Position numbers and translations under genes: made by a program
Shown here: positions 7,853-50,213 of the stretch, piece after piece
Numbering within the stretch: the stretch's first letter is position 1
How the letters are laid out: each line of letters begins with the position of its first letter
NCBI GenBank assembly: GCA_017462345.1
Contig: JAFTRI010000018.1
Span: 62,001-126,000 of the forward strand
Reading direction: 5' to 3'
Length of the DNA: 64,000 bases
DNA from: Muribaculaceae bacterium
GTDB lineage: Bacteria; Bacteroidota; Bacteroidia; Bacteroidales; Muribaculaceae
Notes under the pieces: model-generated
Database searches by the model: none
Told to the model about the DNA's origin: nothing
The model's input: the letters and a program-made list of their open reading frames with translations, nothing else

Positions 7853-7888
7853 CGATGACAATGTATTTTGTCATAAATTTTAAATAAT

Positions 7889-8064: not shown

Positions 8065-8118
8065 CGTTTTTTACTAACTGTCTTTTCCGGCAATGCAAAG
8101 ACAACGAGAACAATAATC

Positions 8119-8790: not shown

Positions 8791-8811
8791 CAATATCAAA
8801 TTAAAATCATT

Positions 8812-9207
8812 ATGACAGCCTACCGATATTTTTTATTTTTATTATTATTCACTATATCTGCCGTTTCACATGCCGATGATAAAGGTGAAAGAGTCGGACC
8901 AACCTACGATGTAACATTAGACAGACCTGTTTTACGAGCCTTAATTGAAGGTGAACCCTATTTTAATGTTACAGTTGAATTAGATGCAGCCGGTCATACA
9001 GAAATACTAACCACAGGCGTAAAAGTGACAGTTAAAGACAGTCAAACAGGAAAGAAAATATATAAGAAAAGATTTTCCAAATCTTACCTTTATGCGTTTT
9101 CCAATGGTACAATTCTCGTTGGTAAAGGTAATGCTTTGACACAAGTAATCTTAACAAAATCAGATGGCGTCTGGCTTATGGAAATAAGAGAAAAAGGCAT
9201 CTACTAA
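8812..9207 (+). CDS. Small exported protein of unknown function
   Basis: A 131-residue product with a signal peptide (MTAYRYFLFLLLFTISAVSH, cleavage near ADD). The mature part of about 110 residues looks like a small all-beta domain: YFNVTVELDAAGHTEIL, then VKVTVKDSQTGKKIYKKRFS, YLYAFSNGTILVG and VWLMEIREKGIY. No family is recognised. It follows the preceding exported-protein gene by 21 bases and shares its AT-rich composition, so the pair is probably co-expressed and may have been acquired together. Confidence 0.7.
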   Translation: MTAYRYFLFLLLFTISAVSHADDKGERVGPTYDVTLDRPVLRALIEGEPYFNVTVELDAAGHTEILTTGVKVTVKDSQTGKKIYKKRFSKSYLYAFSNGTILVGKGNALTQVILTKSDGVWLMEIREKGIY

Positions 9208-13266: not shown

Positions 13267-14513
13267 AATTCGAGCTGTTTATAGCCGGTCGTATGCGTCC
13301 CGCCAACGGAAAGCGCGGGTCTCTATCCAGCACAAACATCGCAGTGGCAGGTATAGCCTTGGCATTAACAGTCATGATGATTGCCATTGTTGTCGTACTC
13401 GGATTCAAGCATGAGATACGCGACAAGGTTATGGGCTTCGACTCCCAAATCAAGATTGAATCAAACTCAGGATATGGAGACGGGACTGACGGCAATTACA
13501 TCGAACTTTCAAGTGCAATAGAACATATTATCGACAGCATAATACCGGAAAGCAATGTCGCCCTCACGGTCAAACAGTCGGGAATACTCAAGACCAACGA
13601 CAATTTTATGGGGATAGTGTTCAACGGCATAGACACCAACTATGACCTCAATTTCGTACATCAGAACATAATCGACGGTATTATCCCCGATTATACCGAC
13701 AGTGGCAACCGCAACAAAATCATACTGTCACAATCGATGACAAAAGTCCTCGGACTAAAAACAGGAGACAAAGTATATGCCTACTTTTTTGAAGACAATA
13801 ACATCAGGACACGTAACCTTGAGATTGCCGGTATCTACGAGTCTCACTTCGGAGATTATGACAAGCTGATAGCCTACTGCGACATATCGCTGCCACAAAA
13901 GCTGAAAGGACTGGATTCCGACACAGGAAGCACAATAGAAATTTCAGGTATCACGCCCGATGACATCACGGAAAAGGCAGCCATGTTGCAGGACGCATTG
14001 ATAGAAGCCTGTTACGACAACACACTGAAACACCTGTATCAGGTAAACAACGTGTACAACACCGGAGCCCTGTATTTCAACTGGCTTGAACTGCTTGACA
14101 CCAATGTTGTGGTAATACTCATTCTCATGACATTCGTTTCGGGATTCACACTCGTGTCATGCCTGTTCATAATTATCCTTGAACGTGTCAACATGATAGG
14201 TATACTCAAAGCCTTGGGTGCAACCAACCGCCAGATAAGGAGCATTTTTATCTGTGTTGCCGAACGTCTTGTCATGCGTGGCATGATTGCAGGCAACATA
14301 ATCGCATTGACACTTATCATGCTGCAAGAAAAGACCCATCTCCTGCCACTCGACCCTGAGGCTTATTACCTGAATTACGTTCCGGTTGAGATAAACTGGT
14401 GGTACATAGCGGCTTTGAACATCGGGGTGATAGCAACATCATGTCTCATCCTGATCCTGCCATCCCAAATGATATCAGGCATCGCACCGTCAAAAACGAT
14501 GAGATATGAATAA
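13263..14513 (+). CDS. LolC/LolE-type ABC transporter permease (FtsX/MacB superfamily)
   Basis: Inner-membrane permease, predicted to act in lipoprotein release or a related export process. The topology is that of the family: one N-terminal membrane segment (about 27-50, NIAVAGIALALTVMMIAIVV), then a large periplasmic domain (about 55-270). Three C-terminal segments follow (about 285-310, 325-355 and 375-400). Between them is the cytoplasmic coupling region GILKALGATNRQIRSIFI, typical of LolC/E and FtsX proteins. No ATP-binding partner (LolD) is in the window, so it must use a subunit encoded elsewhere. The gene overlaps the preceding aminotransferase gene by 4 bases; the two functions are not obviously linked. 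Confidence 0.88.
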   Translation: MKFELFIAGRMRPANGKRGSLSSTNIAVAGIALALTVMMIAIVVVLGFKHEIRDKVMGFDSQIKIESNSGYGDGTDGNYIELSSAIEHIIDSIIPESNVALTVKQSGILKTNDNFMGIVFNGIDTNYDLNFVHQNIIDGIIPDYTDSGNRNKIILSQSMTKVLGLKTGDKVYAYFFEDNNIRTRNLEIAGIYESHFGDYDKLIAYCDISLPQKLKGLDSDTGSTIEISGITPDDITEKAAMLQDALIEACYDNTLKHLYQVNNVYNTGALYFNWLELLDTNVVVILILMTFVSGFTLVSCLFIIILERVNMIGILKALGATNRQIRSIFICVAERLVMRGMIAGNIIALTLIMLQEKTHLLPLDPEAYYLNYVPVEINWWYIAALNIGVIATSCLILILPSQMISGIAPSKTMRYE

Positions 14514-14650
14514 AACCTGACATCCCCCGACCTTTTTGGCACATTATTTGTTTTAAAAGCAATAGAAGTATTAACATTGATTAATGGGAAACCCTGATAG
14601 AGGATTTTTCATTACATTTGCAACCAATTTAATCCACTCTTACCCGATTA

Positions 14651-15010
14651 ATGACAACTGAAAACGATATCGTTAAACTGATAACCGAAGGAATACAAGA
14701 GCGCAAGGGCCGCAAGATAACCCATGTGGATCTTAGTGCTATAGAATCGGCTGCATCCGGGAATTTCATCATCTGCGAAGGGACATCATCAATGCATGTC
14801 TCGGCAATTGCCGACAGTATAAGGGAATATCTACTGAAAGAAGCCGGAATAAAACCTTACAACTATGACGGCTACCGCAATGCCCAATGGATTGTCATAG
14901 ACTACGGTAGCGCCATGGTACACGTATTCCTCCCTGAAGTTCGCTCATTATACAACCTTGAAGAGTTGTGGAGTGATGCCAAAATCACCGAAATAGCTGA
15001 CATTGACTAA
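14651..15010 (+). CDS. rsfS: Ribosomal silencing factor RsfS (Iojap)
   Basis: Binds ribosomal protein uL14 and blocks subunit joining under poor growth conditions. The 119 residues match the family from end to end: DLSAIESAASGNFIICEGTS, then SIREYLLKEAGIKP and WIVIDYGSAMVHVFLPEVR. The gene is 9 bases ahead of ftsH and probably shares its transcript, a common neighbour pair in Bacteroidetes. A -7 box TACATTTG is present at 14613-14620, about 30 bases before the ATG. Confidence 0.95.
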   Translation: MTTENDIVKLITEGIQERKGRKITHVDLSAIESAASGNFIICEGTSSMHVSAIADSIREYLLKEAGIKPYNYDGYRNAQWIVIDYGSAMVHVFLPEVRSLYNLEELWSDAKITEIADID

Positions 15011-15019
15011 ATTAACCGC

Positions 15020-17026
15020 ATGAAACCCGAACAAAAGAAACGAGCACCCCGATTCAGCATATACTGGATGTATGTCATCATCGTATTATTCCTGATCGGA
15101 GTATTATATTTGGATGACAACACCATCACAAAGACGATTCACGACTATAACGAGTTCAAAGAATATGTCGAACAAGGAGGAGTCACAAAAATTGTAGTGT
15201 ACACGGGAAAAGATGAGGCAGAGGCATATCTGTCAGATTCCCTTGCCGCCAAAATATTCCATAATAACCAGCTGGAACGTGGAGCAGAATCAAAGATAGT
15301 GACGACCGTTCCTATGCAAAAATTGGAAAAAGACCTTGAAGCATGGGAAACATCGGGAGTCTTCTCAGGAGAAGTACGCTATGAAAAAGGTAGTGAATTC
15401 AGTTCAATACTATGGTCATTCGGACCAATCGTACTGCTTATTGCTTTCTGGTTCTTTATCATGAAGAGGATGTCAGGGCGCGATGGAGGAGCCGGAGGAG
15501 TATTCAACGTTGGAAAATCCAAGGCCCAGATATTTGACAAGGACGGACCGATACAGGTAACATTCAAGGATGTCGCAGGTCTGTCGGAAGCCAAGACCGA
15601 AATAGAAGAAATAGTAGAATTTCTCAAAAATCCGCAACGCTACACTGAACTTGGAGGGAAAATTCCCAAAGGAGCATTGCTTGTAGGTCCTCCCGGAACA
15701 GGAAAGACACTACTTGCCAAGGCTGTTGCCGGAGAAGCCAATGTGCCGTTCTTCTCCATGTCAGGATCTGACTTTGTAGAGATGTTTGTTGGCGTGGGAG
15801 CTTCACGTGTACGAGACCTGTTCCGTCAGGCAAAGGAAAAAGCCCCGTGTATCGTATTCATCGACGAGATCGATGCAGTGGGTCGTGCCAGAGGGAAAAA
15901 CCCGAATATGGGCGCAAACGATGAACGTGAAAACACTCTGAACCAGTTGCTCACCGAAATGGACGGATTCGGGTCAAACAGCGGTGTCATAATCCTTGCC
16001 GCCACCAACCGTGCCGATATTCTTGACAAGGCATTGTTACGGGCAGGCCGTTTCGACCGCCAGATATACGTAGAGCTGCCAGACCTCAATGACAGGGTGG
16101 CAATATTCAACGTACATCTGCGAAACATAAAGACCGACGCAAGCGTGGATGTCGAGCTGCTCGCCCGACAGACCCCCGGATTCTCAGGTGCCGATATCGC
16201 CAATGTGTGCAACGAAGCCGCATTGATTGCCGCTCGCCACAATAAGCCGACAGTAGAAAAACAGGATTTCATAGATGCAGTGGACCGTATCATAGGAGGA
16301 TTGGAGAAACGCTCTAAAATCACCACCGATGAAGAAAAACGAGCCATTGCAATTCATGAAGCGGGACATGCCGCACTTTCATGGCATCTGCAATATGCCA
16401 ACCCGCTTATAAAAGTAACAATCGTTCCACGCGGAAAAGCTCTTGGCGCAGCATGGTATCTGCCCGAAGAACGCCAGATAACCCCTACACAGGCATTACT
16501 TGACGAGATGTGTGCGACATTGGGAGGACGAGCCGCAGAAGAACTGTTCCTCGGCCGTATTTCCACAGGCGCAGCCAACGACCTTGAACGGGTGACCAAG
16601 CAGGCCTACGCAATGGTTGTATATTACGGCATGAGCGAAAAGTTACCCAACGTGTGCTATTACGACTCGACAGGACAAGACTACGGTTTCTCCAAGCCGT
16701 ACAGCGATGACCGTGCCAAGCTGATAGACGAAGAAGTTTCACGGATCATCAACGAGCAGTATGCCCGCGCAAAGAAGATACTTAAAGAACATGCCGACGG
16801 ACACGCGCGCCTTGCCGAAGTATTAATCTCACGTGAAGTCATTTTCACCGAAGATGTAGAAAAGATTTTCGGTAAACGCCAATGGACATCACGCACCGAT
16901 GAGATTCTTGCTGCAAAATCGGCAGAAGCAGCCGAGGCAGAAGCGGCTGAAGAAGCGGAGAACAACGAGAATGCCCATAAAACACCTCCGCCATTCAAGA
17001 CTCCGCCAATCACCAAAAAGGATTAA
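15020..17026 (+). CDS. ftsH: ATP-dependent zinc metalloprotease FtsH
   Basis: Membrane-anchored AAA+ protease for membrane-protein quality control. Two membrane segments (about 13-30 and 133-150) flank a periplasmic domain. The AAA domain carries Walker A GPPGTGKT (223-230), Walker [14 protein letters not shown] and the second region of homology [20 protein letters not shown]. The zinc-protease motif HEAGH is at 446-450. The pore motif [11 protein letters not shown] is intact. The C-terminus is an Ala/Glu-rich tail (about 632-655) ending in a proline-rich stretch, variable in the family. It follows rsfS by 9 bases and is followed by a strong terminator. Confidence 0.98.
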
Positions 17027-17045
17027 TTTATATTCCATAACTCCA

Positions 17046-17080
17046 AAAAGTCATGCCTTAGCCCTATGAGCATGACTTTT
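17046..17080 (+). terminator. Terminator after ftsH
   Basis: A perfect 11-bp stem, AAAAGTCATGC with GCATGACTTTT, loop of 13 bases. The stem ends in T4 and is followed by CG and another T4. That second T-run doubles as part of the -33 element of the next gene. Confidence 0.8.
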
Positions 17081-17083
17081 CGT

Positions 17084-17114
17084 TTTGTCAAGGGTGAGTT
17101 TTAAGCTATCTTTG
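17084..17114 (+). promoter_or_regulatory. Full Bacteroidetes promoter of the BamA-like gene
   Basis: TTTG (17084-17087), a 19-base spacer, then TATCTTTG (17107-17114): an exact match to the Bacteroidetes housekeeping consensus. The expected start is near 17121, giving a leader of only about 13 bases before ATG 17134. Confidence 0.75.
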
Positions 17115-17133
17115 CACTCCAAGAGAAAGATAT

Positions 17134-18396
17134 ATGAGATATTCCGACTTGTTGCCATTATTGTTGTTCATCACTTCACTTATTGCTCTACCGCAAGACA
17201 TAGCAGCAGAGGGTATGCACACCGATTCGGCCAATGTCTCAAAAACATTCTATGTAGAGCCGATGCCGGAGAAAAAGCACAATACGAAAACCGAGTATGC
17301 CGACTCCATAAGTATGCTTCAGAAAACGCCCAAATGGCTTCGCGAATACCTAAACTCTCTGATGCGCGGGAACATTGACCGTACAAGAGATAAACGGATT
17401 GACATGAGTTTTGCCGCCACACCGTCCTATACGAGAGAAGCCGGATTCGGCATCGGGGCGGCAGCGACCGGGCTTTACCGTATAGACCGGAATGATACAT
17501 TACCTAATCCATCAGACTTTTTTATCTCACTGAATGCATCGTTCAATAAATTTTACGTTTTGACGTTCAAGGGCAACAACCTGTTTCCCGACAATCGTTC
17601 AAGGCTATCCTACAAACTTGAGCTATACCGTAAAAATCTCGATTTTTGGGGTATAAATTCAGAAGAAACAGCCCGTAATGCCAAATCAAAATATAACCGC
17701 CGTCAGATAGATCTGCAGGCTGAATACATATATCGTGTCAACCGGCGTTTTTATACAGGATTCCAGATCCGTTCCAACTACACCGATGCCCGCGATGTAA
17801 GAAACCCCGAGTATCTGCTCAACGAGCGTTCACAATACTATGTTACCGGAGTAGGACTGTCATTTGAATATGACACCCGCGACAACCTGGTCACCCCTAC
17901 CCGCGGTGTACATCTCGCCTACAAGCCCATGGTATTCCCGAAAGGATTGGGCAGTGCACCCTCTACATTCTACAGCCATACGCTTATTGCCAACAGCTAC
18001 ATACGGCTTTGGAAAGGTGCGATACTCGCACTCGACTGGTATGCCAAACTCAATAGCGAAAGGACTCCCTGGACAATGAGAGAGATGCTGGCTTCGGACG
18101 GTATAAGAATGCGCGGTTATTATATGGGCTCTACAATGGACAACAGCCAGATTGCATCACAAGCCGAACTCCGACAGCATCTGTGGAAACGGCTTGGAAT
18201 TGTCATCTGGGGAGGAGGAGCAACAGTATTCTCGTCGATTAAGGATCTTCACAAATACGACATCAAGCCTGAATGGCTGCATAATTTCGGAGTGGGACTG
18301 CGATTCGAGTTCAAGCACAACGTTAATGCACGCATCGATTATGGATTCGGACAAGGTACATCAGGAATAGTATTTGCCATCGGCGAAGCCTTTTAA
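17134..18396 (+). CDS. BamA/TamA-family outer-membrane barrel without POTRA domains
   Basis: Predicted outer-membrane protein of the D15/bacterial surface antigen family. A signal peptide spans about 1-25 (LLLFITSLIALPQDIAAEG). A short linker follows with no POTRA-like repeats. From about residue 105 a 16-strand-type barrel begins, with the family signatures LSFEYDTRDNLVTPTRG, GIRMRGYYMG and GLRFEFKHNVNARIDYGFGQ, and a C-terminal aromatic (IGEAF). At 420 residues it is much shorter than BamA or TamA. Its role (barrel assembly, lipid handling or a plain pore) is open. It has its own promoter and converges on the acyl-CoA synthetase gene. Confidence 0.85.
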   Translation: MRYSDLLPLLLFITSLIALPQDIAAEGMHTDSANVSKTFYVEPMPEKKHNTKTEYADSISMLQKTPKWLREYLNSLMRGNIDRTRDKRIDMSFAATPSYTREAGFGIGAAATGLYRIDRNDTLPNPSDFFISLNASFNKFYVLTFKGNNLFPDNRSRLSYKLELYRKNLDFWGINSEETARNAKSKYNRRQIDLQAEYIYRVNRRFYTGFQIRSNYTDARDVRNPEYLLNERSQYYVTGVGLSFEYDTRDNLVTPTRGVHLAYKPMVFPKGLGSAPSTFYSHTLIANSYIRLWKGAILALDWYAKLNSERTPWTMREMLASDGIRMRGYYMGSTMDNSQIASQAELRQHLWKRLGIVIWGGGATVFSSIKDLHKYDIKPEWLHNFGVGLRFEFKHNVNARIDYGFGQGTSGIVFAIGEAF

Positions 18397-18457
18397 CTTA
18401 ATCGAAGGGCATCCGCGCCCTATTTCCGTGTCAATGGCTGGGGAATTTTATAGAATA

Positions 18458-38724: not shown

Positions 38725-40326
38725 TCAATAGTCATACTCCAGACTCAGATCATCGACATACAGCACACTGCCATCGCCTCCGGTGAAATAGTCACCATAC
38801 TTGCTTGCCGAAGCGACAATAACGATGTACCGTGGCACCCGCTGCGTTGTACGGTAATCAAGTTCAATTTCAAACGGGATATATTCCGGGACATCCTCTC
38901 CATACTGCACTTTCCCATAAGCAATCACTTGCGGGTCATTCTCATCGAACAACTGCCGGTCGGATGGTTTGGTACGAATCTCGAACGGGGTATTCCAGTC
39001 GGCAAGTGCAGCCCATACGATACATGTGTCCGGCTGTCCTTTTAGTCGGGTGAAACTCTCTGTCGCGTGACTTATCGTTGCCGACTTATACTTGAGGTAA
39101 CCTTTTATTTTTGTCGGACGTCCGGAGAACTCACGCCCGAAACTCAACACTCCGTTCGTCCCGTCAGTTCTCACATATTTTCCTGTAAACAGGTTTCCGG
39201 CAGCCAGTTTTCCCACCGATGCGATACCCACAAACTTAGTCTGCAACATTGCAGCTTTTCCTGTACCGGTAGACGTGTCATCCGTGGGTACACTGTTACT
39301 GTCTCCAAGTGTAGTCGCCCCCTTGTTCCCGGTATCCCAATATTGATTCCCGCCCTCAAGCCACGGATTCCATATCTTGCCGCTGAGCCACCACTCGTCA
39401 AGTGAAGCATTGGGAATGGTTGCACCACCCGTTGTGACAAACTCGATCTCGTTTCCGGTTTCGTCATCAGAGCAGGCACGTGCCACGTATGCCGTTTCGG
39501 GTGACAAGTGTATCAGCCGTCCGGTAAAACTGCCGCCATTATGGGTTACCCATTCTGCCGGGACCTTACTCCACTCCGTATCATCGGCTCTGCGGTATTC
39601 AAATCCGTTTTCCTTTCCCACCTGAGCCACACCATAAAGCCATGCCACACATGTCCATGCATCGACACGTTCGGTTGTCACATTACTTTCTGTTTGCTCG
39701 ACGTATATAGTCCAATTCTCACTTCTGCCAAATTCCGTGACCTCCACGGTTACAGGCTGGGAGAAATCAACCGTCTGTCCGGTAAGATCCGGTGTCATTA
39801 CCGATGTCGATCCGCCGAGCCTGATTGTCTGGACCTTGACCTGCTTCAAGTCAACACTCATCGGGACGTATGCAATCACCCTGTGGGCACCGGCATCCAC
39901 AGCCGAAGTACCTATCTGCGATGCTATTGTAAAATAACGTTCAATATTCTGAACTGCCGTGATTGTCCATACATAATCCTGATACAACCGTAACGTCACA
40001 CTCACCGGTGAGGTAAGATCCATTCCTCCTGCCAATGCGTCACCCACAACCGATGCACCGTCAGTTATCGAGTATGACATGACATTGACATTCTGTATAT
40101 CAGCCACATCATTGAGATACACCGTCATCTTGCGCGACAACGTGTCAATTGATGTCGCACGATAACTGTTCTCGACCTCAAATGACAGGAAATTGGGTTG
40201 TATGCGCGGATACGGGACATTGTTGTCGATACATCCGCTAACTGCAGCACCGATTGCTGCTATCAGACATATAACGCCGTTACGCACACGCGCCTTTCTT
40301 GATATATTTTTTTTAAATGTGTACAC
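38725..40326 (-). CDS. PCMD-domain surface lipoprotein
   Basis: Last gene of the six-gene lipoprotein/barrel operon. The signal (about 1-32) ends in a lipobox with cysteine (AAVSGCIDNN). Ig-like beta domains fill about 40-210. A fibronectin-like region follows (WTCVAWLYGVAQVGKENGFE, LSPETAYVARACSDDE). The C-terminal PCMD-type (putative carbohydrate metabolism domain) jelly roll runs from about 300 to the end (IPNASLDEWWLSGKIWNPWL, then VLYVDDLSLEYDY). The start codon overlaps the end of the upstream barrel gene by 14 bases, showing tight coupling. The PCMD fold is expected to bind a glycan or another protein; no catalytic residues are evident. The N-terminus could also start a few codons downstream. 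Confidence 0.85.
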   Translation of the reverse strand: MYTFKKNISRKARVRNGVICLIAAIGAAVSGCIDNNVPYPRIQPNFLSFEVENSYRATSIDTLSRKMTVYLNDVADIQNVNVMSYSITDGASVVGDALAGGMDLTSPVSVTLRLYQDYVWTITAVQNIERYFTIASQIGTSAVDAGAHRVIAYVPMSVDLKQVKVQTIRLGGSTSVMTPDLTGQTVDFSQPVTVEVTEFGRSENWTIYVEQTESNVTTERVDAWTCVAWLYGVAQVGKENGFEYRRADDTEWSKVPAEWVTHNGGSFTGRLIHLSPETAYVARACSDDETGNEIEFVTTGGATIPNASLDEWWLSGKIWNPWLEGGNQYWDTGNKGATTLGDSNSVPTDDTSTGTGKAAMLQTKFVGIASVGKLAAGNLFTGKYVRTDGTNGVLSFGREFSGRPTKIKGYLKYKSATISHATESFTRLKGQPDTCIVWAALADWNTPFEIRTKPSDRQLFDENDPQVIAYGKVQYGEDVPEYIPFEIELDYRTTQRVPRYIVIVASASKYGDYFTGGDGSVLYVDDLSLEYDY

Positions 40327-41164
40327 CTATTCCAAAATTTATGTTGAAAATATTGAACTTGAAATTAGCTCCGCTCGTAAAACGCGAACCTTCCTCCACA
40401 TCATTGGTCTTCTGCTCTTCATTACGGAAATGGACACCGAATACTCCGAAGGAGATATTGAAACTCACATAATCCATAATAAATACACACAAGCCGGGAC
40501 TGAAATTCAGGCTCGCCTCGGTAACTGTAGTGCGCGTATCACGCAATTCATTATTATAATACCGCTTGAACCGGGAACTTCCGCTACCGAATGACAAGTC
40601 CACATCATTGAACACGGCAAAGCGTTTCATATTACTTAGCCCTATATAATTGCGGTAGAAAATCGATGCCGTGTAACTCTGGGTATAGTAGCTCACATCC
40701 TTTAAGGAAAAGTTCAGGTCATCCTCAAAGTCAACTGTCATCCCCGAGAGATCGGCAGTCCCGCGCGTATAACTGAATTTAAGCCCTATAGACTGGTTAT
40801 TCCTTATAAAATACGATATTGACGGCTTTATTGAATATATCTTACCTTTGAAATCAAAGTCTTTCAGCACCGACAGCAACTGCACATCGTCAGCGTCAAA
40901 CTCTCCGTATGATGCCGTAAGTCCGAATGCCCACTGCCCTTTCGGGATATACAGATAATTGAACAATCCGCGGTCATATCGTCCGTAGTTCTTTTCCGGA
41001 AGGATAACACTGACCGTATCCCCGCCTACTATCACTTTCTCGTCAAGCATCCACTGCGGGATGGTATCGGGAGCTATGGATATTTTTTCCTTTGCCGAAA
41101 GACCCGGCACTATGGCTGTTGCCAAAACAAGGGCAAACATATATCTCTTGAAACAATTCTTCAT
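40313..41164 (-). CDS. Small outer-membrane barrel, paralogue A
   Basis: 283 residues with a signal peptide (about 1-24, ending LSA) and a short linker (PDTIPQWMLDEKVIVGGDTV). The beta-barrel has strands of alternating polarity: YIPKGQWAFGLTASYGEFDA, YSIKPSISYFIRNNQSIGLK, then NFGIGVHI at the C-terminus. It shares the I/V-PKGQW opening, the SY-FIRNN-S/YSFKDN-like third strand and the FRNYIGL strand with the next gene, so the two are paralogues. About 10-12 strands are likely. It sits between the PCMD lipoprotein gene (14-base overlap) and its paralogue (2-base gap), so it is probably the outer-membrane part of the locus. Function unknown. Confidence 0.8.
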   Translation of the reverse strand: MKNCFKRYMFALVLATAIVPGLSAKEKISIAPDTIPQWMLDEKVIVGGDTVSVILPEKNYGRYDRGLFNYLYIPKGQWAFGLTASYGEFDADDVQLLSVLKDFDFKGKIYSIKPSISYFIRNNQSIGLKFSYTRGTADLSGMTVDFEDDLNFSLKDVSYYTQSYTASIFYRNYIGLSNMKRFAVFNDVDLSFGSGSSRFKRYYNNELRDTRTTVTEASLNFSPGLCVFIMDYVSFNISFGVFGVHFRNEEQKTNDVEEGSRFTSGANFKFNIFNINFGIGVHI

Positions 41165-41166
41165 AA

Positions 41167-41901
41167 CTATAGATAAAACGCTACCCCGAATGAGATAGAA
41201 AACAGGTTGATTTTAAAATTTGCCGACTTGCTGTCACGGTTTGAGACATATACTTGATCGGTCGTTGACTTCGTATGGTTATAGCTGAAACCGAGAACTC
41301 CGACATTAACCTCTATCGCCGAGTAATTGCTCAGAAACATTATCATTCCGGGAGCAAGCCCCACATCTATACTGTAATTGCGTTCATACGTACCGGTAAG
41401 ATCATCTCCGCTGCCGCTGCATATTTTGGATTCTCCGCAACCCAATTGCAATTGGACCTCATTGAAAAAACCGAATCGCATACTGCGTCCGAGACTTATA
41501 TAGTTGCGGAATGCAGCCGTTGTATAAAAATTATGGCTTATCGAATACAGATTATCTATATCATAATTGGTTTCGGAATCTATAACCACATTACCCGACT
41601 CAAGTTTAGTCCTGGCTCGTGAATATCCCAAGCGTCCGCCTACGGCAAGATTGTCCTTGAAACTGTACATCAGCATCGGGCTTACCTTGAACGAATACGT
41701 GTCACCGGAAATATTCTCTACAATCAGGAACTGGTAATTATCCTGATCTGACTGCGAATAATTGACACTGACTCCGGTTATCCACTGTCCTTTTGGCACG
41801 AACCGCACATGCTCGAGACCGCGTTTGAACGGTTCCTGCCCATAAATGACCCCGGCAAGAGTGATCATAGCCGATAATATCGTATATCTTAATTTGCTCA
41901 T
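41167..41901 (-). CDS. Small outer-membrane barrel, paralogue B
   Basis: 244 residues: signal peptide (about 1-21, MITLAGVIYGQ), then directly a beta-barrel beginning VRFVPKGQWITGVSVNYSQS. SFKVSPMLMYSFKDNLAVGG, AAFRNYISLGRSMRFGFFNE and the C-terminal ISFGVAFYL follow. The overall strand pattern parallels the neighbouring barrel, which has an extra linker after the signal peptide. Gaps are 2 bases downstream and 11 upstream, within the six-gene operon. Two similar barrels encoded side by side suggest a heteromeric or duplicated outer-membrane element serving the lipoproteins. Confidence 0.8.
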   Translation of the reverse strand: MSKLRYTILSAMITLAGVIYGQEPFKRGLEHVRFVPKGQWITGVSVNYSQSDQDNYQFLIVENISGDTYSFKVSPMLMYSFKDNLAVGGRLGYSRARTKLESGNVVIDSETNYDIDNLYSISHNFYTTAAFRNYISLGRSMRFGFFNEVQLQLGCGESKICSGSGDDLTGTYERNYSIDVGLAPGMIMFLSNYSAIEVNVGVLGFSYNHTKSTTDQVYVSNRDSKSANFKINLFSISFGVAFYL

Positions 41902-41912
41902 ATTCCGAAAAT

Positions 41913-43463
41913 CTATTGTCCCTCAACTAAAAATGTCAATGTTGCTGTCACAGCCTGTCCCTCGGCATCGGTAACAGTCAGTTTGAACTGATGCTGCCCT
42001 TCAAAGGCTACCAGCAGCTCCATGAACATGGTTATATCAAATGGAAGATATGTCTTTCCTATTACATCATCCCCCGTAGGGAAACCGAGTTCCGTCAGCA
42101 CCTCTTCCAAGTCTCCGGGATGGGCAAGATCAAATTCCGCTGCCAGACCCACACTCTCCAGCACCTCGGCATTCAGTGTCTCGGATATTATTTCAACGAA
42201 AAACGTCTCGACTCCGTTCGGCACATTGATGTCCACCTTGGCGACAAGATCCGGAGTTACAATATTTGTCCCGGCAAGGTCAAGCGTTTCACTGACAATA
42301 GTGGGAGCATTGGAACTGCCCTGTTCTACCGACAGGCTGAGAACCCCTCTTCCTGTCATCCCGTTAACATCCGTTGCCGTAATATCTATTGAATATTCTC
42401 CCGCCGGTAACGAATTGACAAATACACTGCTGAAATTTATCACACTGTTATATTCGCCCTTGCTTTCATCGCATTGGTATATCTGCTTAATCCCTTTTTT
42501 CAGCAAGTTGTCTCTATCGGCATCCGTGATTGTAATAAAATCTATCGGATTGGGCATCAGTCCCATCGTTTCTAATTCTTCGCTATGTACCACGAGAGAC
42601 TGCAACCAGCTCGCTGCCGAGACATACACCATTTTGGAATTCATTTCACCGGATACTCCTTGCTGGGTATCCTCAAGATTAAAATCAACACCGCTCACAA
42701 CGGGTGCCGCCGTAATAACGAACTCGTCATTTACCATAATCTCAGTTTCATCGACAATTACATTAATCGATACGCCACCGACATCAGGCAGATTGCCCGT
42801 ATATTTCACATTCACCCTATACTCGGTGGCCCGTTTCACATTCGCGATAATTCCCTGCTTGGTAAATGTCTTCCCGTCTATTGTCCGGCCGGTCAACGTC
42901 CAGTTAAGATCCGTTACTCCGTCAGGCATCATGAAATACCCTTTACGGGTCTCATTTCCTGCAAATTCGAGCGAACCCCTTGCATGACCTATTCTTATCG
43001 AATAGTCCGAAAGCGCATCGGCTACCTCTGTATCATACTTGACCGAAGCGACAACATTGGCTATACCGCATGTCAGTGTTACCGTGGTGTTCTCACCCTT
43101 TTTTATTGTAAACGGCTGGTATCCCTTATAGAATTTTGCGTCAAACGATGCAGATACACTGTCTCCTGTCCATGCCTCGGCGACATACTCCCCCGTCTTG
43201 AGCCATAACTCCCCTGGAACCTCATCAAGCCCCTCATATTTCCTTATCAATCCTTTTCCCGATGATATGAAGACTACGCACTTCTCTGCAAGGACTTCCG
43301 TATCCGTCTCATACACATCCTGTGTAGAACCGTCTGTAATGACCGTTGTCATTGTCAGCTTACCCTCACCGGAAACATCGGGAATTTCATCCTTGTCACT
43401 GCATGATACCGCTGCCATACCGATCATCATTGACACAACGGCTGTTCCTAATACTCTTTTCAT
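41913..43463 (-). CDS. DUF4493 surface lipoprotein with two Ig-like modules
   Basis: 516 residues. The lipobox is MAAVSC followed by SDKDE, an acidic stretch after the cysteine that fits the Bacteroidetes surface-export signal. DUF4493 covers about 35-235 (GKLTMTTVITDG, GEYVAEAWTGDS, CGIANVVASVKYDTEV). Two Ig-like modules follow: about 265-385 (SLVVHSEELETMGL, LPAGEYSIDITATDVNGMTG) and about 388-516. The second module is about 85% identical to the C-terminus of the next protein. Gaps are 11 bases downstream and 1 base upstream. Role unknown; a surface-displayed structural or adhesive component is the best guess from layout. Confidence 0.85.
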   Translation of the reverse strand: MKRVLGTAVVSMMIGMAAVSCSDKDEIPDVSGEGKLTMTTVITDGSTQDVYETDTEVLAEKCVVFISSGKGLIRKYEGLDEVPGELWLKTGEYVAEAWTGDSVSASFDAKFYKGYQPFTIKKGENTTVTLTCGIANVVASVKYDTEVADALSDYSIRIGHARGSLEFAGNETRKGYFMMPDGVTDLNWTLTGRTIDGKTFTKQGIIANVKRATEYRVNVKYTGNLPDVGGVSINVIVDETEIMVNDEFVITAAPVVSGVDFNLEDTQQGVSGEMNSKMVYVSAASWLQSLVVHSEELETMGLMPNPIDFITITDADRDNLLKKGIKQIYQCDESKGEYNSVINFSSVFVNSLPAGEYSIDITATDVNGMTGRGVLSLSVEQGSSNAPTIVSETLDLAGTNIVTPDLVAKVDINVPNGVETFFVEIISETLNAEVLESVGLAAEFDLAHPGDLEEVLTELGFPTGDDVIGKTYLPFDITMFMELLVAFEGQHQFKLTVTDAEGQAVTATLTFLVEGQ

Positions 43464-43464
43464 T

Positions 43465-44643
43465 TTACTCGACCAGGAATGTTAGGGTTTTGGTTACTGT
43501 CTGACCGGAAGCATCTGTCACCGTAAGTTTGAACTGATGCTGTCCGGGAAAAGCGGCAAGAAGTTCCATGAACATTGTTATGTCGAACTGCAGATATGTT
43601 TTCCCGATAACTTCGTCTCCCGTAGGGAAACCGAGTTCTTTAAGTACCTCATCCAAGTCACCGGGATGGGCAAGGTCAAACACCGATGCCAGTCCAACAC
43701 TTTCCAGCACCTCGGCATTAAGCGTCTCCGATATTATCTCCACAAAGAAAGTCCCGACACCTTTCGGCGCATTTATGTCGACTTTTGCGATAAGATCCGC
43801 AGTAACAATATTTGGACCGTCAAGGTCAAGGGTCTCACTTTCTATCGTGGGTTCTGTTCCATCTTCGGGACGGTCTCCGGAAATCACATCATCATCTCCC
43901 GGTACATCCACGTTGACATCCTCGTCTGTAATCTCGGCATCTACGATAATTCCCGGATTCACATTTCCTGTTGAAAGCGAGAACGTGACAATACGGTGCT
44001 GTCCGGCTTCCACATCGGTAAATGTCTTGCGTAACGATACCGGCGACCCGTTAACCGACCCGTTAAATGTCGCGACAAGGGTTGAACTTGTCGACGGCAG
44101 GGCAAAATAACCTGCTCGCTGTTCGCCCTTGACGTAATCCAATGAAGCTGAACCTATCGAAATATTCACTGTCACATCATCTCCAAGTGCGGCCTCAAGA
44201 GCTTCACTGTACTTCACCGAAACCTTAACGTTGGAAAGTTTGCATATAATATCATCCGGTTCGGTTACGCTTGATTTCTCAATCGTAAAAGTACCGAAGC
44301 CATAATAATACGGTTTTTCCCATTCGGCATCCTGTAATTCATGAGACTTCACTTCTATCGTATAATCACCGACGACAAGCGACACAATTTCTGGCATATC
44401 GGCATATTGCCATTGCTCCACAAGCCGGTTATCATTATCGTATATACTAACTGTATATCCGGAAATATCTATACCCGAATGTGGCACAACCACATCTTCG
44501 GTATCAACGTCAACACCTAACGATGACAGCGACAACTCGCCCCTGACATCGACAAGGCTTTCCGGCTCCCACGATTCATCGTTGCACGATACACCCATGA
44601 CGGCGATCAGTGCTGCAACAGCACATTTGAATATTTTTTTCAT
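43465..44643 (-). CDS. DUF4493 surface lipoprotein with one Ig-like module
   Basis: 392 residues: lipobox MGVSC followed by NDESWEPE (acidic surface-export signal), DUF4493 at about 35-250 (ELSLSSLGVDVD, VVGDYTIEVKSHEL, PYYYGFGTFTIEKSSV, CKLSNVKVSVKYSEAL), and a C-terminal Ig-like module at about 266-392. That module matches the one in the preceding entry almost residue for residue (SETLNAEVLESVGLA, FDLAHPGDL, GQHQFKLTVTDA). The separation from the next gene is one base, and 30 bases from the gene upstream. It looks like a shorter version of its neighbour, lacking the inner module. Confidence 0.85.
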   Translation of the reverse strand: MKKIFKCAVAALIAVMGVSCNDESWEPESLVDVRGELSLSSLGVDVDTEDVVVPHSGIDISGYTVSIYDNDNRLVEQWQYADMPEIVSLVVGDYTIEVKSHELQDAEWEKPYYYGFGTFTIEKSSVTEPDDIICKLSNVKVSVKYSEALEAALGDDVTVNISIGSASLDYVKGEQRAGYFALPSTSSTLVATFNGSVNGSPVSLRKTFTDVEAGQHRIVTFSLSTGNVNPGIIVDAEITDEDVNVDVPGDDDVISGDRPEDGTEPTIESETLDLDGPNIVTADLIAKVDINAPKGVGTFFVEIISETLNAEVLESVGLASVFDLAHPGDLDEVLKELGFPTGDEVIGKTYLQFDITMFMELLAAFPGQHQFKLTVTDASGQTVTKTLTFLVE

Positions 44644-44673
44644 GTCGGTTAAATTTTCTGAGATTATCCAAGA

Positions 44674-47226
44674 TTAATACGAAAATGACAGGTTATCTAT
44701 CCACAACACGCTCCCGGTAGATGACGCGGACGCACAATCGGGAGAGGTTTTGACTTTCGATGTCTCATACGGAATACTTCCTGTCGTCTTCGATGAGGAT
44801 GCCATTACCTGAATGCGGACAGCCTTCACCCCAAACATACCATATTTTATCGGTAACGAGAATGCCGTATAGTCAGTTGCCGCCGACAATTCCATCTTTG
44901 CGTCAGCAATAACCACCTCTTTTCCATCAGCATTTCCTATTACCTTTACGGCAACGAGTCCCTTGTCACTATAGTCAGCTGCACTCGGAGCATATTTGAA
45001 ATACCCGTTCAATGCCGACGGACGGGAGCCGAATCCTATACCTTCGTTATAGACCTCACTCATTGTCGCTGCATCAAACCGGTATTCCCCAAGAAATAAT
45101 TTGCCGGTAGCACGATATGATATGTTCGGCACATTCCTGTTGTATCTGACATACGGGGTTCCCTCCTGTACATAATCGGAAATCGCCTCTCCGTTAACAT
45201 CCCACGCCACACTCTTTACCATCATCGCCTTTGTACCGCTCTGTTTGTCGGCGACAATCATGGCTGACGGTTGCATGTACCAGGTGTTCCTGTTATTGGC
45301 CGTTTCGCAAAAAGTCTTGGCATTCACCGAAGCCCAGTCCTTCGGAAAATCGACATCCACGGTTATACGGTTCTGCTGGTTTATTATTGCAACCGTACTC
45401 GATGAATATCTGCCGCCACTGAAAAGCCCCTCATAATCGATAAGATCATCAATCTCCTCAAAATCTCCGTTAGGAATCCCCTGTACTGCCTCGGTATATA
45501 TACCCACCGCATCACAGTACACAGGATTGGAATTGCCCTCCATTACCGTGGCCTTAATGCTGTAATTGGTCGACGGATTTAATCCTGTAACAGTGATTTC
45601 CCCGGCTTCCTCATCTCTTGAAATTACATTTTTCTTCACTCCGTCAGCCATCACCGTTGCATGACGGGTAAGGAATGCCAACTGGGTGCGCTGCAACGGC
45701 AATATCTTGACTACCGCCCTGTTTGCATACGCATCGACCTCGATATTGAACTTGGGGGCCGTCCGCATAATTACGGTTTCGGCCTTGACCGCACCGCAAT
45801 ATTTCAGTCTGACAGGAACATCAGCGACACCATCCGGAACGGTGAATGCCATTCGGTATTTCCCCGAGCCGGTTGCCTCCTCTACTACTGACGCGATTAC
45901 GACATCTTCCCACATGCCGTTTTCTCCACATGCCTCTAACGATAGGCGTTCCACGACTGCCTGGCTGGAACATGACACGACAATATCCGTCATGTTGTCA
46001 CCTATCGTAGCCGTTCCTTTACTCTCTATGGTAACATTCACCGGCAATACCTCAGCTACAAGGGAAACCGGTTCACTCACTTTCGTCAACTTGTCTTTTA
46101 CAACAACAGTAAATGTTGATAACGGTTTAGACTCATCATATCTCAAATTCCCGAGTAATCCGGTAAAATCGAGTAAAGCCATCTTATCGGGATTATGCCA
46201 CAGTCCTTCAACCCTGAGACCCATTCGGGCAATCATCGACTGTTCCTGTTCTGTTGCCGCCATCAGATCCATCTCTGCCGGCCAACCGTCTGCTATCAGC
46301 GACGATGACGATGTTGTGAGCATCACCGATTTGATACCGGCCCGCGCACTCACAACCATCCTTGCCTGCGTTTCTGGGATTTGCCCCTCCGTGACCTGTA
46401 CAGCCCCCTCTGAAACAAATCCCTCGGTAGTAATCTCCGGCGCGGGAGAACTCATCAGTTCGTCACTCAGGTCGATTGTGAAATCCTCGGTTGCCAAAGC
46501 GTCATCAAATGCGATTACAAGCTGTGCCGGTCCCATATTACCGCCGTTGACATCCATCGTCACATGATAATGGTGACGGGCTAGCGCATTTTCCATCACT
46601 GCCGGTTGGAATGTCGTGGACACACCGCTCGGCAACGTAAGCGACACTGTCATCGAAATATTTCCGGGACGGAGGTATACAGGACGCGTCTCATCCTTGT
46701 CATACACTATATATGCACCGCCATCTGAATGCAATTCGGTACTGTAATCGACAAAATACCCTTTGAACGCATCGGTATAGTCGATCGACACCATCGCATT
46801 GGCAAGCGAGCATGTAACACTGACATCAGTCGCACTTGCTTCCGAAATTACAAAATCTTCCTGTCCGTAATAATACGGCATCCCAAAACCCTCATTTTCA
46901 AGACTGCCGTAATATGCTTCCATACGATAGCGTCCTATCTTAAACTGTTCGTCAGTCGGGAATTCAGAAATGGAACCCCATGTGTGGCTGTAGCTGCCGT
47001 CCTCACTGCTCATCCTTATCTTGAAGTCATCGGCAACCGGGACAGACTCATCGACGGAACGCTCCTCAACGGCATCAGTAGATTCAATAACATCTGAATC
47101 TACATTTAATCTGAAGTTTACCGAGCCGCTTCCTGTATTTGACGGATTATCCTCCGACCCGCATGAAACAAGCAACATCAATGCAACAGAAACGACTCCT
47201 AAACATTTTCCTCTCATATAATCCAT
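44674..47226 (-). CDS. Large DUF4493-PCMD surface lipoprotein
   Basis: First gene of the operon. The start is set at ATG 47226 (or 47217, three codons on) because it opens a lipoprotein signal (LGVVSVALMLLVSCGSED); earlier in-frame codons are not signal-like. About 850 residues. The DUF4493 domain spans about 25-255 (GSVNFRLNVDSDV, GRYRMEAYYGSLENEG, PYYYGQEDFVISEASATDV, CSLANAMVSIDYTDAF). Ig-like modules occupy about 260-480. A fibronectin-like region follows (TVTGLNPSTNYSIKATVMEG), then a C-terminal PCMD domain from about 585 (GIPNGDFEEIDDL, then SVLWIDNLSFSY). It carries the domains that the downstream genes carry separately, so it may be the main surface subunit. Confidence 0.85.
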   Translation of the reverse strand: MDYMRGKCLGVVSVALMLLVSCGSEDNPSNTGSGSVNFRLNVDSDVIESTDAVEERSVDESVPVADDFKIRMSSEDGSYSHTWGSISEFPTDEQFKIGRYRMEAYYGSLENEGFGMPYYYGQEDFVISEASATDVSVTCSLANAMVSIDYTDAFKGYFVDYSTELHSDGGAYIVYDKDETRPVYLRPGNISMTVSLTLPSGVSTTFQPAVMENALARHHYHVTMDVNGGNMGPAQLVIAFDDALATEDFTIDLSDELMSSPAPEITTEGFVSEGAVQVTEGQIPETQARMVVSARAGIKSVMLTTSSSSLIADGWPAEMDLMAATEQEQSMIARMGLRVEGLWHNPDKMALLDFTGLLGNLRYDESKPLSTFTVVVKDKLTKVSEPVSLVAEVLPVNVTIESKGTATIGDNMTDIVVSCSSQAVVERLSLEACGENGMWEDVVIASVVEEATGSGKYRMAFTVPDGVADVPVRLKYCGAVKAETVIMRTAPKFNIEVDAYANRAVVKILPLQRTQLAFLTRHATVMADGVKKNVISRDEEAGEITVTGLNPSTNYSIKATVMEGNSNPVYCDAVGIYTEAVQGIPNGDFEEIDDLIDYEGLFSGGRYSSSTVAIINQQNRITVDVDFPKDWASVNAKTFCETANNRNTWYMQPSAMIVADKQSGTKAMMVKSVAWDVNGEAISDYVQEGTPYVRYNRNVPNISYRATGKLFLGEYRFDAATMSEVYNEGIGFGSRPSALNGYFKYAPSAADYSDKGLVAVKVIGNADGKEVVIADAKMELSAATDYTAFSLPIKYGMFGVKAVRIQVMASSSKTTGSIPYETSKVKTSPDCASASSTGSVLWIDNLSFSY

Positions 47227-47479
47227 TATTTTTAAGTAATTATGCACGGACACACACAGCTTCATCGCATCCGGACTACAATTAGCCAAAATATTTGTAA
47301 AGTTACACCATTTTACACGATACAGAAATAGCACTATCGTTAAAATACATTAACACATGCCATACATCAATTTCACAGCTGTTTAATTCGGGTTCATTTT
47401 ACGACGGTTTTGGAGCACTGGAACCGGCTTACTTGCGGGACCATAAATTCATTTCAACAAAATTTAAACAGCCTCTTAT

Positions 47480-47510
47480 TTTGAGGCTACAAAAATAACG
47501 CCTAAATTTG
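47480..47510 (+). promoter_or_regulatory. Full Bacteroidetes promoter of the PglF/CapD-like gene
   Basis: TTTG (47480-47483), a 19-base spacer and TAAATTTG (47503-47510) match the consensus exactly. The -33 box lies inside the small hairpin GCCTC-ttatttt-GAGGC (47471-47487). The expected start is near 47517. Confidence 0.7.
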
Positions 47511-47537
47511 TACAATGATATGCGATGTTGTCACACC

Positions 47538-49529
47538 ATGCAACAAAAACACATGAGAACAAAAATCCTGACACAGTTATCACACTCTCCTTTAGTCAAA
47601 ATACTACAGTCAGCACCGGTTCCCCGCTGGATGGTATTGGTTGCCGACATGATGATAGTTGTATTATGTGCCTTTCTTACATTTTTTTTCAACGGATGTA
47701 CACAAGGTGAAGGCTTCATGTTCGCCATTCCGGTCAAGGCATCCATTATAGCCTCAGTCTATCTGGCTATGGATCTGTGGCTTAAAAGTTACCAATACAT
47801 CATCCGACTGTCAATCATTGAAGACGTTTATCGGCTTACCCTGCTCGTTCTCGCATCATCCGTTTTTTCAGTTACATCAACAATCGTACTTGAATCTGTA
47901 ACAGGAATACGCTATTTCAGTATCTGGAACATATTTATCATAGGCATGTTCTCATTCTCGATTATGATGTGCATGAGGTTGCTGATAAAATATATATACA
48001 CGCTGATTACCGATGTCGGTAATACCCGCAAACCGGTAATAGTTCTCGGCTCAGCGATAAACTCATTTGTGCTTGCCAACGCCCTGAAGAATGAAGTTGA
48101 AGGGAGATTTGATCCTGTTGCCTTGTTAAGTCTGTCCGATAAAAATGCCGGCACTACAATCAACGGTATTCCCATCATCCTCTACTCTCAAGACAGCATC
48201 AAGGAAATATTTGATAAATTCCATTGTGATACACTTCTGTTTCTCTCCACCCAGATTGACCTGATGAGAGGTGAATTTGCCGATGTCTTTTTCAACAATC
48301 ACATCAAACTGTTGATGCTGAATCAGGTAGAGGAATTTGACGCAAACGACAACTCCATGCCCAACCTTTCTACCCATGTACGCAACATCCGCATCGAGGA
48401 TCTGCTCGGACGCGACCCCATCCTCAATGACAACCCGCACATCAACAGGCTGATACGCAATCAGGTCGTCATGATTACCGGTGCCGCAGGCTCGATAGGA
48501 AGCGAGATTGTGAGACAAGTGGCACAATTCGGGGCAAAAGAGATTGTTCTTGTCGACCAGGCCGAGACTCCGATGCATTATATGCAGCTTGAAATGGAAG
48601 AACGCTTCCCCGACACCGCAATACACCTGTTCATCGGGAATATCACCAACAGACAACGCATGGATGAAGCATTCTCTCTATATCACCCGAAATACGTGTT
48701 CCATGCCGCGGCCTATAAGCACGTGCCGATGATGGAGCACAACCCGTCAGAAGCAATTTTCACAAATGTTTTCGGGACAAAGAATCTCGCCGACCTGTCT
48801 GTTGCCCACGGAGTGGAGAAATTTGTAATGATTTCAACCGACAAGGCTGTAAACCCGACCAACATAATGGGGGCATCAAAGCGTATCGCCGAAATATATG
48901 TCCAATCACTCTTCTTCCATTTACAGAAGAATAACAAGGTCGCAACACGCTTCATAACCACACGCTTTGGCAATGTTCTTGGTTCTAATGGATCAGTGAT
49001 TCCGCGTTTCAGCAAGCAGATTGAAGAAGGCGGGCCGGTCACTGTAACCCACCGTGACATAATACGCTATTTCATGACAATTCCCGAAGCCTGTTCTCTC
49101 GTCCTCGAAGCGGGATGCATGGGAGACGGAGGAGAAATATACATCTTTGACATGGGCAAACCCATCAGGATTTACGATCTCGCCTGCCGCATGATTTCGT
49201 TAGCAGGATTACGTGTAGGAGAAGACATCAGGATAATAGAGACCGGACTGCGTCCCGGAGAAAAACTATACGAGGAATTGCTCAATGACAAGGAAACGAC
49301 AATGGCGACTCTCCACAAGAAAATCATGATTGCAAAGGTACGCACCTACAGCTATTCCGATGTAATCTCCCACCTTGACACTCTTTTCCATTCACTTAAC
49401 ACCGGAAATATACATAACCTTGTTTCCGAAATGAAACTTATCGTTCCTGAGTTCAAGTCTCAAAATTCCGAATGGGAAAGCATCGACAAGGAACTCAAGA
49501 AAGAAAAAGCAGAACAATTATGGTACTGA
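47538..49529 (+). CDS. Membrane-bound nucleoside-diphosphate-sugar 4,6-dehydratase (PglF/CapD-like)
   Basis: Probable UDP-GlcNAc 4,6-dehydratase or relative used for surface-glycan precursors. Four N-terminal helices span about residues 35-160 counted from an upstream TTG codon at 47508 that overlaps the promoter. A CoA-binding-like Rossmann domain follows (VIVLGSAINSFVLANALKNE). The extended SDR domain carries MITGAAGSIGSEIVRQ, VFHAAAYKHVPMME, MISTDKAVNPTNIMGASKR and TRFGNVLGSNGSVIPRF. Length is about 660 residues, usual for the family. ATG 47538 or 47553 are the plausible starts, given the promoter ending at 47510. A DUF4923 gene follows after 27 bases. No sugar operon surrounds it, so the final product is unknown. 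Confidence 0.9.
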   Translation: MQQKHMRTKILTQLSHSPLVKILQSAPVPRWMVLVADMMIVVLCAFLTFFFNGCTQGEGFMFAIPVKASIIASVYLAMDLWLKSYQYIIRLSIIEDVYRLTLLVLASSVFSVTSTIVLESVTGIRYFSIWNIFIIGMFSFSIMMCMRLLIKYIYTLITDVGNTRKPVIVLGSAINSFVLANALKNEVEGRFDPVALLSLSDKNAGTTINGIPIILYSQDSIKEIFDKFHCDTLLFLSTQIDLMRGEFADVFFNNHIKLLMLNQVEEFDANDNSMPNLSTHVRNIRIEDLLGRDPILNDNPHINRLIRNQVVMITGAAGSIGSEIVRQVAQFGAKEIVLVDQAETPMHYMQLEMEERFPDTAIHLFIGNITNRQRMDEAFSLYHPKYVFHAAAYKHVPMMEHNPSEAIFTNVFGTKNLADLSVAHGVEKFVMISTDKAVNPTNIMGASKRIAEIYVQSLFFHLQKNNKVATRFITTRFGNVLGSNGSVIPRFSKQIEEGGPVTVTHRDIIRYFMTIPEACSLVLEAGCMGDGGEIYIFDMGKPIRIYDLACRMISLAGLRVGEDIRIIETGLRPGEKLYEELLNDKETTMATLHKKIMIAKVRTYSYSDVISHLDTLFHSLNTGNIHNLVSEMKLIVPEFKSQNSEWESIDKELKKEKAEQLWY

Positions 49530-49556
49530 TTTAATCCACTTATAATTATACTCAAG

Positions 49557-50213
49557 ATGAAAAAATTCTTTTCAATTTCAATCCTGTTGGCAGCTATTTT
49601 TATTGCACCTGAAGTTTACGCATTTGACATTAAAGACCTGTTGAAAAATGCAGCTTCGGGTAGTTCTTCCTCCGACAGCAACAATAGCACGGCTTCAGGC
49701 ATCGGCAATCTGTTAGGAAATCTGCTGTCATCAGGAGATGTCGACATCAACGAGATGACAGGCACATGGAACTACACAGCTCCGGCTGTATCATTCCAGA
49801 GTGAGAACCTGTTGGAGAAGGCCGGAGGGGCAGCAGCGGCAACCACTATAGAGGAAAAGCTCGCCCCATACTACAAAATTGCCGGCATCAACAGCATGAA
49901 ACTAACCATTGAAGCCGACAGCACTTTCACAATGGCACTGAAACGGGGGACTTTCACCGGCAATATCACCAAGGATGAGGAAGGGAATTTCGTATTCAAC
50001 TTTAAGGTTGTCAAAAAAATCGACATCGGTAAGATGAAGACCTACATCACCAAGTCAGGCAACAATCTCAGCATAATGTTTGATGTCTCCAAACTCACTA
50101 CCCTTGTCAACAAAGCAGGTTCAATCACAGGCAACAGTACCGTTCAGGGAGTATCAACCCTTCTCAACAGCTACGACGGTATATGTGCCGGCTTCAAAGT
50201 GGCAAAGGAATAG
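49557..50213 (+). CDS. DUF4923-like exported protein
   Basis: 218 residues. The signal peptide spans about 1-22 (FSISILLAAIFIAPEVYA). A Ser/Asn-rich linker (SGSSSSDSNNSTASGIGNLL) precedes a domain reading MTGTWNYTAPAVSFQSENLL, EKLAPYYKIAGINSMKLTIE, DSTFTMALKRGTFTGNI and SYDGICAGFKVAKE. This is the pattern of the DUF4923/lipocalin-like proteins of Bacteroidales, function unknown. It lies 27 bases after the dehydratase gene and probably uses the same promoter. Confidence 0.75.
   Translation: MKKFFSISILLAAIFIAPEVYAFDIKDLLKNAASGSSSSDSNNSTASGIGNLLGNLLSSGDVDINEMTGTWNYTAPAVSFQSENLLEKAGGAAAATTIEEKLAPYYKIAGINSMKLTIEADSTFTMALKRGTFTGNITKDEEGNFVFNFKVVKKIDIGKMKTYITKSGNNLSIMFDVSKLTTLVNKAGSITGNSTVQGVSTLLNSYDGICAGFKVAKE

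Follow-up and report, generated by a model that had tools for sequence, protein, structure and literature searches.

What does a run of six genes for predicted surface lipoproteins and outer-membrane barrels build in a gut bacterium? The genes (g1 to g6) lie at 38725-47226, on the minus strand like all features given below, in the window, a 64,000-nucleotide stretch of contig JAFTRI010000018.1 from a Muribaculaceae metagenome-assembled genome (GCA_017462345.1; 2.09 Mb, 84% complete). Muribaculaceae are common gut commensals and, to our knowledge, their means of attachment have been little studied. In the open-access literature, the sole literature covered, we found no papers under the names of the two uncharacterised Pfam families, DUF4493 (PF14900) and PCMD (PF13201), that the operon appears to tie to one machine with an outer-membrane partner. 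The initial annotation, made from the letters of the window, had proposed a dedicated structure of several subunits, equipped with an outer-membrane component of its own. Comparative genomics supports such a system well, as two conserved modules and not as the single unit proposed, because the barrels and g6 occupy identical sets of genomes, every barrel genome has DUF4493, the order g4-g5-g6 is fixed, DUF4493 forms three position-specific lineages, and full operons recur in 12 other families. As to what is built, the best explanation is that the lipoproteins assemble at the cell surface into a structure akin to type V pili. We hold it tentatively: several lines of evidence favour it modestly, and the window copy supplies clear counter-evidence.

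Two barrels and a PCMD lipoprotein travel as one module

By gene content, the predicted barrels g4 (41167-41901, 244 aa) and g5 (40313-41164, 283 aa) and the PCMD lipoprotein g6 (38725-40326, 533 aa) form an all-or-none module, module B. Profile searches placed the barrels and g6 in the identical 92 of 128 Muribaculaceae-family genomes sampled. With profile-guided open reading frames, the order g4-g5-g6 was found in 67 of the 69 named loci whose sequence extends more than 3 kb beyond g4 on the downstream side; the two exceptions were L132, where the DUF4493 genes of module A lie between g5 and g6 (12196-18446), and L107, where no g6 was seen. Among the first 61 genomes, a g6-type gene adjoins the barrel in 30 of the 31 stretches round barrel matches, and in 27 of these 30 g4-g5-g6 was read directly; L061 has a single barrel, and in L047 and L059 a wrong frame hid g5, a second barrel match being present. 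L062, with a weak barrel match, has no g6-type gene beside it. In L128, a 966-aa gene (6250-9150) stands between g5 and g6.

That a lipoprotein gene is always part of the module would suit barrels that serve as a dedicated exporter, bringing these lipoproteins to the cell surface. One barrel and one PCMD lipoprotein also stand together at three distant loci, and the general exporter of surface lipoproteins is undescribed (PMC12632263). Against this idea, about eight strands counted by eye would leave no obvious pore, and 11 genomes that lack these barrels have DUF4493 lipoproteins all the same; we consider a dedicated exporter improbable.

The DUF4493 genes co-occur with the barrels even when unlinked

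DUF4493 was found in 103 of the 128 family genomes: in all 92 with barrels and in 11 of the 36 without (Fisher P 2e-18, kinship ignored). The initial annotation would have been contradicted by barrels found mostly without DUF4493 or PCMD genes, and both g6 and DUF4493 are present in 92 of 92 barrel genomes. At least three DUF4493 matches were counted in 69 of these, two in 2 and one in 21, and each of the 11 barrel-free genomes with DUF4493 has a single match; two or more matches thus occur in 71/92 barrel genomes versus 0/36 barrel-free ones. Three subunits are not always needed, since 21 barrel genomes have one match and two have two.

Upstream of the barrels and on the same strand, 28 of the 55 named loci that offer 7 kb or more of upstream DNA have no DUF4493 gene, 19 have g1 alone, four have g1-g2, three have g2, and one has g1-g2-g3. 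In six genomes (G013, G014, G019, G024, G025 and G032) the barrel locus lacks a DUF4493 gene and the triplet lies on another contig. Broken assemblies do not account for all of this separation, because G139 and G156 hold both modules on one contig, about 120 kb and about 15 kb apart; G139 has an extra g1 beside module B. On this distribution, the six genes are two separable modules that co-occur even when unlinked. A chance or housekeeping grouping of genes without a shared role, which the 28 loci lacking an upstream DUF4493 gene might suggest, is already disfavoured and hardly credible given the identical genome sets of barrels and g6 and the co-occurrence of unlinked modules.

Across 295 genomes of the order, the barrel profile matched in 32, 29 of them outside the family and spread over 17 other families. 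A DUF4493-barrel-PCMD operon is present in 12 of these families. Three more (L161, L169, L186) have the barrel and PCMD genes without DUF4493, and in two (L171, L179) the barrel has neither partner beside it; some of these loci have a single barrel (e.g., L162, L172, L180). At L173, L177 and L180, two more DUF4493 genes lie downstream of g6, giving five DUF4493 genes round one barrel.

Module A comprises three ancient DUF4493 subunits

The three DUF4493 lipoproteins of the window differ in their C-terminal parts. Position 1, g1 (44674-47226, 850 aa), joins DUF4493 (46465-47133, aa 32-254; Pfam 3e-46) to Ig-like modules and a C-terminal PCMD-related jelly roll recognised by profile comparison; position 2, g2 (43465-44643, 392 aa), has DUF4493 (43900-44541, aa 35-248; Pfam 2e-48) and one Ig-like module; and position 3, g3 (41913-43463, 516 aa), has DUF4493 (42714-43370, aa 32-250; Pfam 1.5e-46) and two Ig-like modules, with no PCMD match in Pfam. 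Of 203 DUF4493 hits, 181 were retained once near copies and short or broken ones had been dropped. We built a DUF4493 tree from the 33 loci with exactly three retained DUF4493 domains on one strand. Its clades follow gene position, with 2 label changes compared with a mean of 46.8 and a minimum of 37 when labels were shuffled within loci. Window g1, g2 and g3 fall in clades 1, 2 and 3 (support 0.83, 0.89 and 0.42). The tree indicates that g1, g2 and g3 are three ancient subunits with fixed positions; none of the three lineages could be assigned to an anchor, stalk or tip role.

In other genera, most g3 orthologues have a PCMD domain at their C terminus; window g3 has none, and neither has the 383-aa g3 of L044, from the same genus as the window. 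The C-terminal Ig-like module of window g3 (41922-42305) is a near copy of that of g2 (43468-43851; 85% protein identity), and likely arose by recent copying within the operon, because the two share 80% DNA identity over 341 bases. In L155 (G036:C16:1-20000), eight DUF4493 genes follow one another, the g1-g2-g3 set having apparently been multiplied in tandem; one of its DUF4493 matches holds an internal TAG.

DUF4493 distantly resembles type V pilins

Type V pili are donor-strand polymers on the cell, whose subunits have a two-domain transthyretin-like fold and are cut near the N terminus by a surface clostripain or gingipain. With signal peptides removed, HHalign matched a diverse DUF4493 alignment to Mfa2 at 85% (P 6e-6, 47 columns) and the C-terminal half of DUF4493 to the end of Mfa_like_1 at 41% (P 3e-4); with reversed sequences, every control stayed below 1%. 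By position, the Mfa2 match was 8%, 60% and 79% for subunits 1, 2 and 3. The test is insensitive, because Mfa2 and Mfa_like_1, both known pilin families, find each other at only 0.3%. Trimming mattered: with signal peptides left on, DUF4493-Mfa2 scored 95%, the N-terminal part of g6 against DUF4493 91% and against Mfa2 56%, the g6 values being inflated by matches among signal peptides and lipoboxes; the trimmed values were 60%, 0.3% and 0.1%. The pilin profiles drew on 20 of 30 Mfa2 and 22 of 30 Mfa_like_1 loci, the others giving wrong or other frames or longer proteins.

Four loci in three other families (L165, L175, L178, L185) have, ahead of their first DUF4493 gene, a gene that matched Mfa_like_1 at 94% (P 1e-7, 136 columns), a value obtained from these four sequences; the same genes gave no HMMER match with a custom Mfa_like_1 profile, and the two scanned with Pfam gave no fimbrillin match. 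The initial annotation had noted that no SusC/D, glycoside hydrolase, fimbrial or secretion genes are near. None was found among the ten genes flanking the operon (33493-54310, the part of the window covered by the family scan), so this stands for the scanned flanks, but at those four loci of relatives the operon begins with a fimbrillin-like gene. The window genome gave no match to Mfa2, DUF3575 or Mfa_like_1 at the thresholds applied (for PF12099, E<=0.001).

An arginine site of many relatives is absent in its strict form from the window subunits

Type V pilins are described as surface lipoproteins clipped by a surface clostripain (PMC11316588). Lipoprotein synthesis of the subunits, as in type V pili, is predicted for g1-g3: the four lipoprotein starts of the initial annotation were confirmed as CGSED (g1), CNDESWEPE (g2), CSDKDE (g3) and CIDNN (g6), and a lipobox pattern was present in 62, 75 and 37 distinct DUF4493 proteins of the g1, g2 and g3 classes, those of the window included, and not detected in 17 more. 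The pattern was a simple one and misplaced the lipobox in some extended frames; that of window g1 was re-placed for the site check.

A strict arginine site, [ST]R[AST] at +15 to +48 after the lipidated Cys, occurs in 35/75 g2-class, 18/37 g3-class and 15/62 g1-class proteins, classes being set by domain so that window g3 is counted in the g2 class. Among comparison sets, it is present in 12/22 Mfa_like_1 and 0/20 Mfa2 proteins. Because g6 too exceeded its shuffles, we added 119 other lipoproteins as a control: pooled, 68/174 DUF4493 proteins carry the site versus 6/119 controls, one of the six being the fimbrillin-like gene of L175. In the 33 triplet loci, positions 1, 2 and 3 carry it in 17, 21 and 18 cases. 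We infer that in these relatives it would be a cleavage site. Across 33 genomes, 1/11 subunits have the strict site where Peptidase_C11 is absent and 31/62 where it is present (Fisher P 0.018), leaving out subunits without a recognised lipobox or with an already counted identical start; the association is weak because five of the six C11-negative genomes belong to one genus.

Several observations weigh against a type V-like assembly. The Mfa2 match spans 47 columns, and position-1 subunits alone score 8%; searches of solved structures with DUF4493 profiles listed no type V pilin, one unrelated F1845 fimbrial chain (E 1.7) being the fimbrial entry; and the operon has no Mfa2-type anchor. The complete g1-g2-g3 set upstream of barrels is a single case in 55, and 21 barrel genomes have one DUF4493 match and two have two. 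The site also occurs in g6, expected to be unclipped, in 15/98 proteins, above its own shuffles. In the window itself, g1, g2 and g3 lack the strict site, a relaxed pattern being present in g1 (ERS) and in g2 (VRG, inside the first strand), and the window genome, 84% complete, has no Peptidase_C11 match.

An alternative is a static surface complex, in which lipidated Ig/DUF4493/PCMD proteins would surround the two barrels as a glycan- or host-binding adhesin, with no clipping or polymerisation in any lineage and with the arginine sites serving as protease shedding sites. It would suit a window copy devoid of strict sites and of a C11 match, and the 21 barrel genomes in which one DUF4493 gene suffices; additional Ig modules and the C-terminal jelly rolls could likewise stand in the way of an ordinary stalk. 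The distant Mfa2 match, the fimbrillin-like partner genes and the fimbrillin-like position of the site speak against it, and we regard a static complex as a serious but somewhat doubtful possibility.

PCMD domains probably bind glycan

The PCMD domain of g6 (38740-39396, aa 311-529), which follows an Ig-like N-terminal part, aligns with BT2081 (PDB 3hbz) over about 200 residues. It keeps Asn200, Phe202, Phe221, Phe280, Asp338, Phe340 and Asp351 of BT2081, has Tyr for Phe206 and Trp for Tyr261, and replaces Asp259 with Ile (Ile436 of g6). Six g3 orthologues have Val, Ile, Ile, Asn, Asn and Ser at position 259 and keep Asp at 338; three distant barrel-paired PCMD proteins retain Asp259. Asp259 and Asp338 were proposed as the catalytic residues of BT2081 (PMC2954218), a pair that neither g6 nor the six g3 orthologues have complete. 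Since the pocket is kept but Asp259 is replaced, these domains probably bind glycan rather than cleave it, which would also fit the static complex. The curated cut-off of PCMD, 28 bits, is passed by g6 (151 bits, 6e-44) and weakly by g1 (33.7 bits, 4e-8); the g1 jelly-roll profile matches that of PCMD at 99.2% (P 1e-19), and its glycan pocket is mostly not conserved. The domains initially assigned (DUF4493, Ig-like, PCMD) are borne out, with PCMD weak in g1.

BT2081 and several paralogues sit in polysaccharide utilization loci (PULs) with SusC homologues (PMC2954218), so that an accessory to nutrient uptake, capturing sugars for import as PUL PCMD proteins would, has to be weighed. The ten flanking genes include no SusC/D or glycoside hydrolase, and hence no SusC/SusD pair; barrels of about 220 residues would be small for a transporter, and the proposed catalytic Asp is lost. 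An uptake role seems quite unlikely.

The barrels are not established DUF3575 members

The two barrels in the middle of the operon are paralogues, as first described, with 29% identity. Pfam gave g4 sub-threshold matches only (best OMP_b-brl, E 0.0075) and g5 none; about 8 amphipathic strands, picked by eye from ten candidates, suggest small outer-membrane barrels, and g5 has a conserved N-terminal extension (VIVGGDTVS..GRYDRGL). DUF3575 we take to be a small outer-membrane protein. With a profile built from the 15 of 30 DUF3575 loci shorter than 215 aa, g5-type barrels matched at 42% (P 3e-4) and all barrels at 14%; PF12099 matched 2 of 39 barrels (best E 0.004), and membership is not established. 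DUF4493 itself, untrimmed, matched DUF3575 at 7.5% over 8 columns and was discarded as a relative. A DUF3575 match lies within 6 kb of 21 of 23 Mfa2 places (E<=1e-20); in the sampled genomes, pilin genes thus usually have a small outer-membrane protein next to them.

Operon layout and neighbourhood

Spacing from g1 to g6 comprises gaps of 30, 1, 11 and 2 bases and one 14-base overlap, in agreement with the end-to-end arrangement initially reported. The ten flanking genes encode UvrD, a PLP-decarboxylase-domain protein, a family 2 glycosyltransferase, RadC, Polysacc_synt_2, DUF4923, a hexapeptide acetyltransferase, a two-ABC-domain protein, a flavodoxin-fold protein and one protein without a match. 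The Polysacc_synt_2 and DUF4923 genes (47508-50213) lie upstream and divergent, and in many relatives DUF4923-like genes are found next to the barrels. No inverted repeat of 11 or more bases, as an inverted promoter would have, was found in 47150-47600.

Discussion

That the operon encodes a conserved system of two modules is well supported: its barrel-PCMD module is present in 92 of the 128 sampled family genomes, and its DUF4493 subunits have stable identities. In the type V-related assembly that we tentatively favour, the DUF4493 subunits would be distantly related to the type V (FimA/Mfa) pilins and would reach the cell surface as exported lipoproteins. In many relatives, a surface clostripain-type protease would clip after the Arg and remove the first strand, allowing subunits to join; jelly-roll/PCMD domains would act as glycan-binding heads, and the small barrels with lipoprotein g6 as the outer-membrane base. 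In the window lineage, where strict clip sites and protease were not found, the subunits probably stay lipid-anchored in a short, non-polymerised complex. The window copy looks derived, and may neither clip nor polymerise, because it has no strict Arg site, no clostripain match and a g3 that has lost its PCMD domain.

A bolder version, which we find rather doubtful although possible, is a second, undescribed branch of type V-like filaments, widespread in gut Muribaculaceae, with three DUF4493 subunits that are clipped and then join as pilins do, PCMD sugar-binding heads and a base of two barrels and a PCMD lipoprotein, from which lineages like that of the window dropped clipping and kept the lipid-anchored form. 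If the pilin relation is true, a new subunit family and a base barrel would be added to type V pili.

Compared with known systems, g6 resembles BT2081 and other PCMD proteins in its aligned domain and conserved pocket aromatics, but differs in the residue at the Asp259 position, in the absence of SusC among its ten flanking genes and in its small-barrel partners. Like the DUF3575 proteins of fimbrial operons, presumably, g4 and g5 are small outer-membrane proteins beside pilin-type lipoproteins; unlike them, they come as two paralogues with a PCMD partner, and the profile match is weak. Set against the type V (FimA/Mfa1-type) pili of Bacteroidales, the operon has DUF4493 in place of the FimA/Mfa families and lacks an Mfa2-type anchor. 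Its subunits have additional Ig modules and PCMD heads, its barrels show no convincing relation to DUF3575, and the window copy has no strict site. It shares with those pili a set of lipoprotein subunits with a distant match to Mfa2 and Mfa_like_1, an Arg site that in many relatives lies about as far from the lipid Cys, a C-terminal domain of ligand-binding type on some subunits, and a nearby gene for a small outer-membrane protein, DUF3575 there and g4/g5 here.

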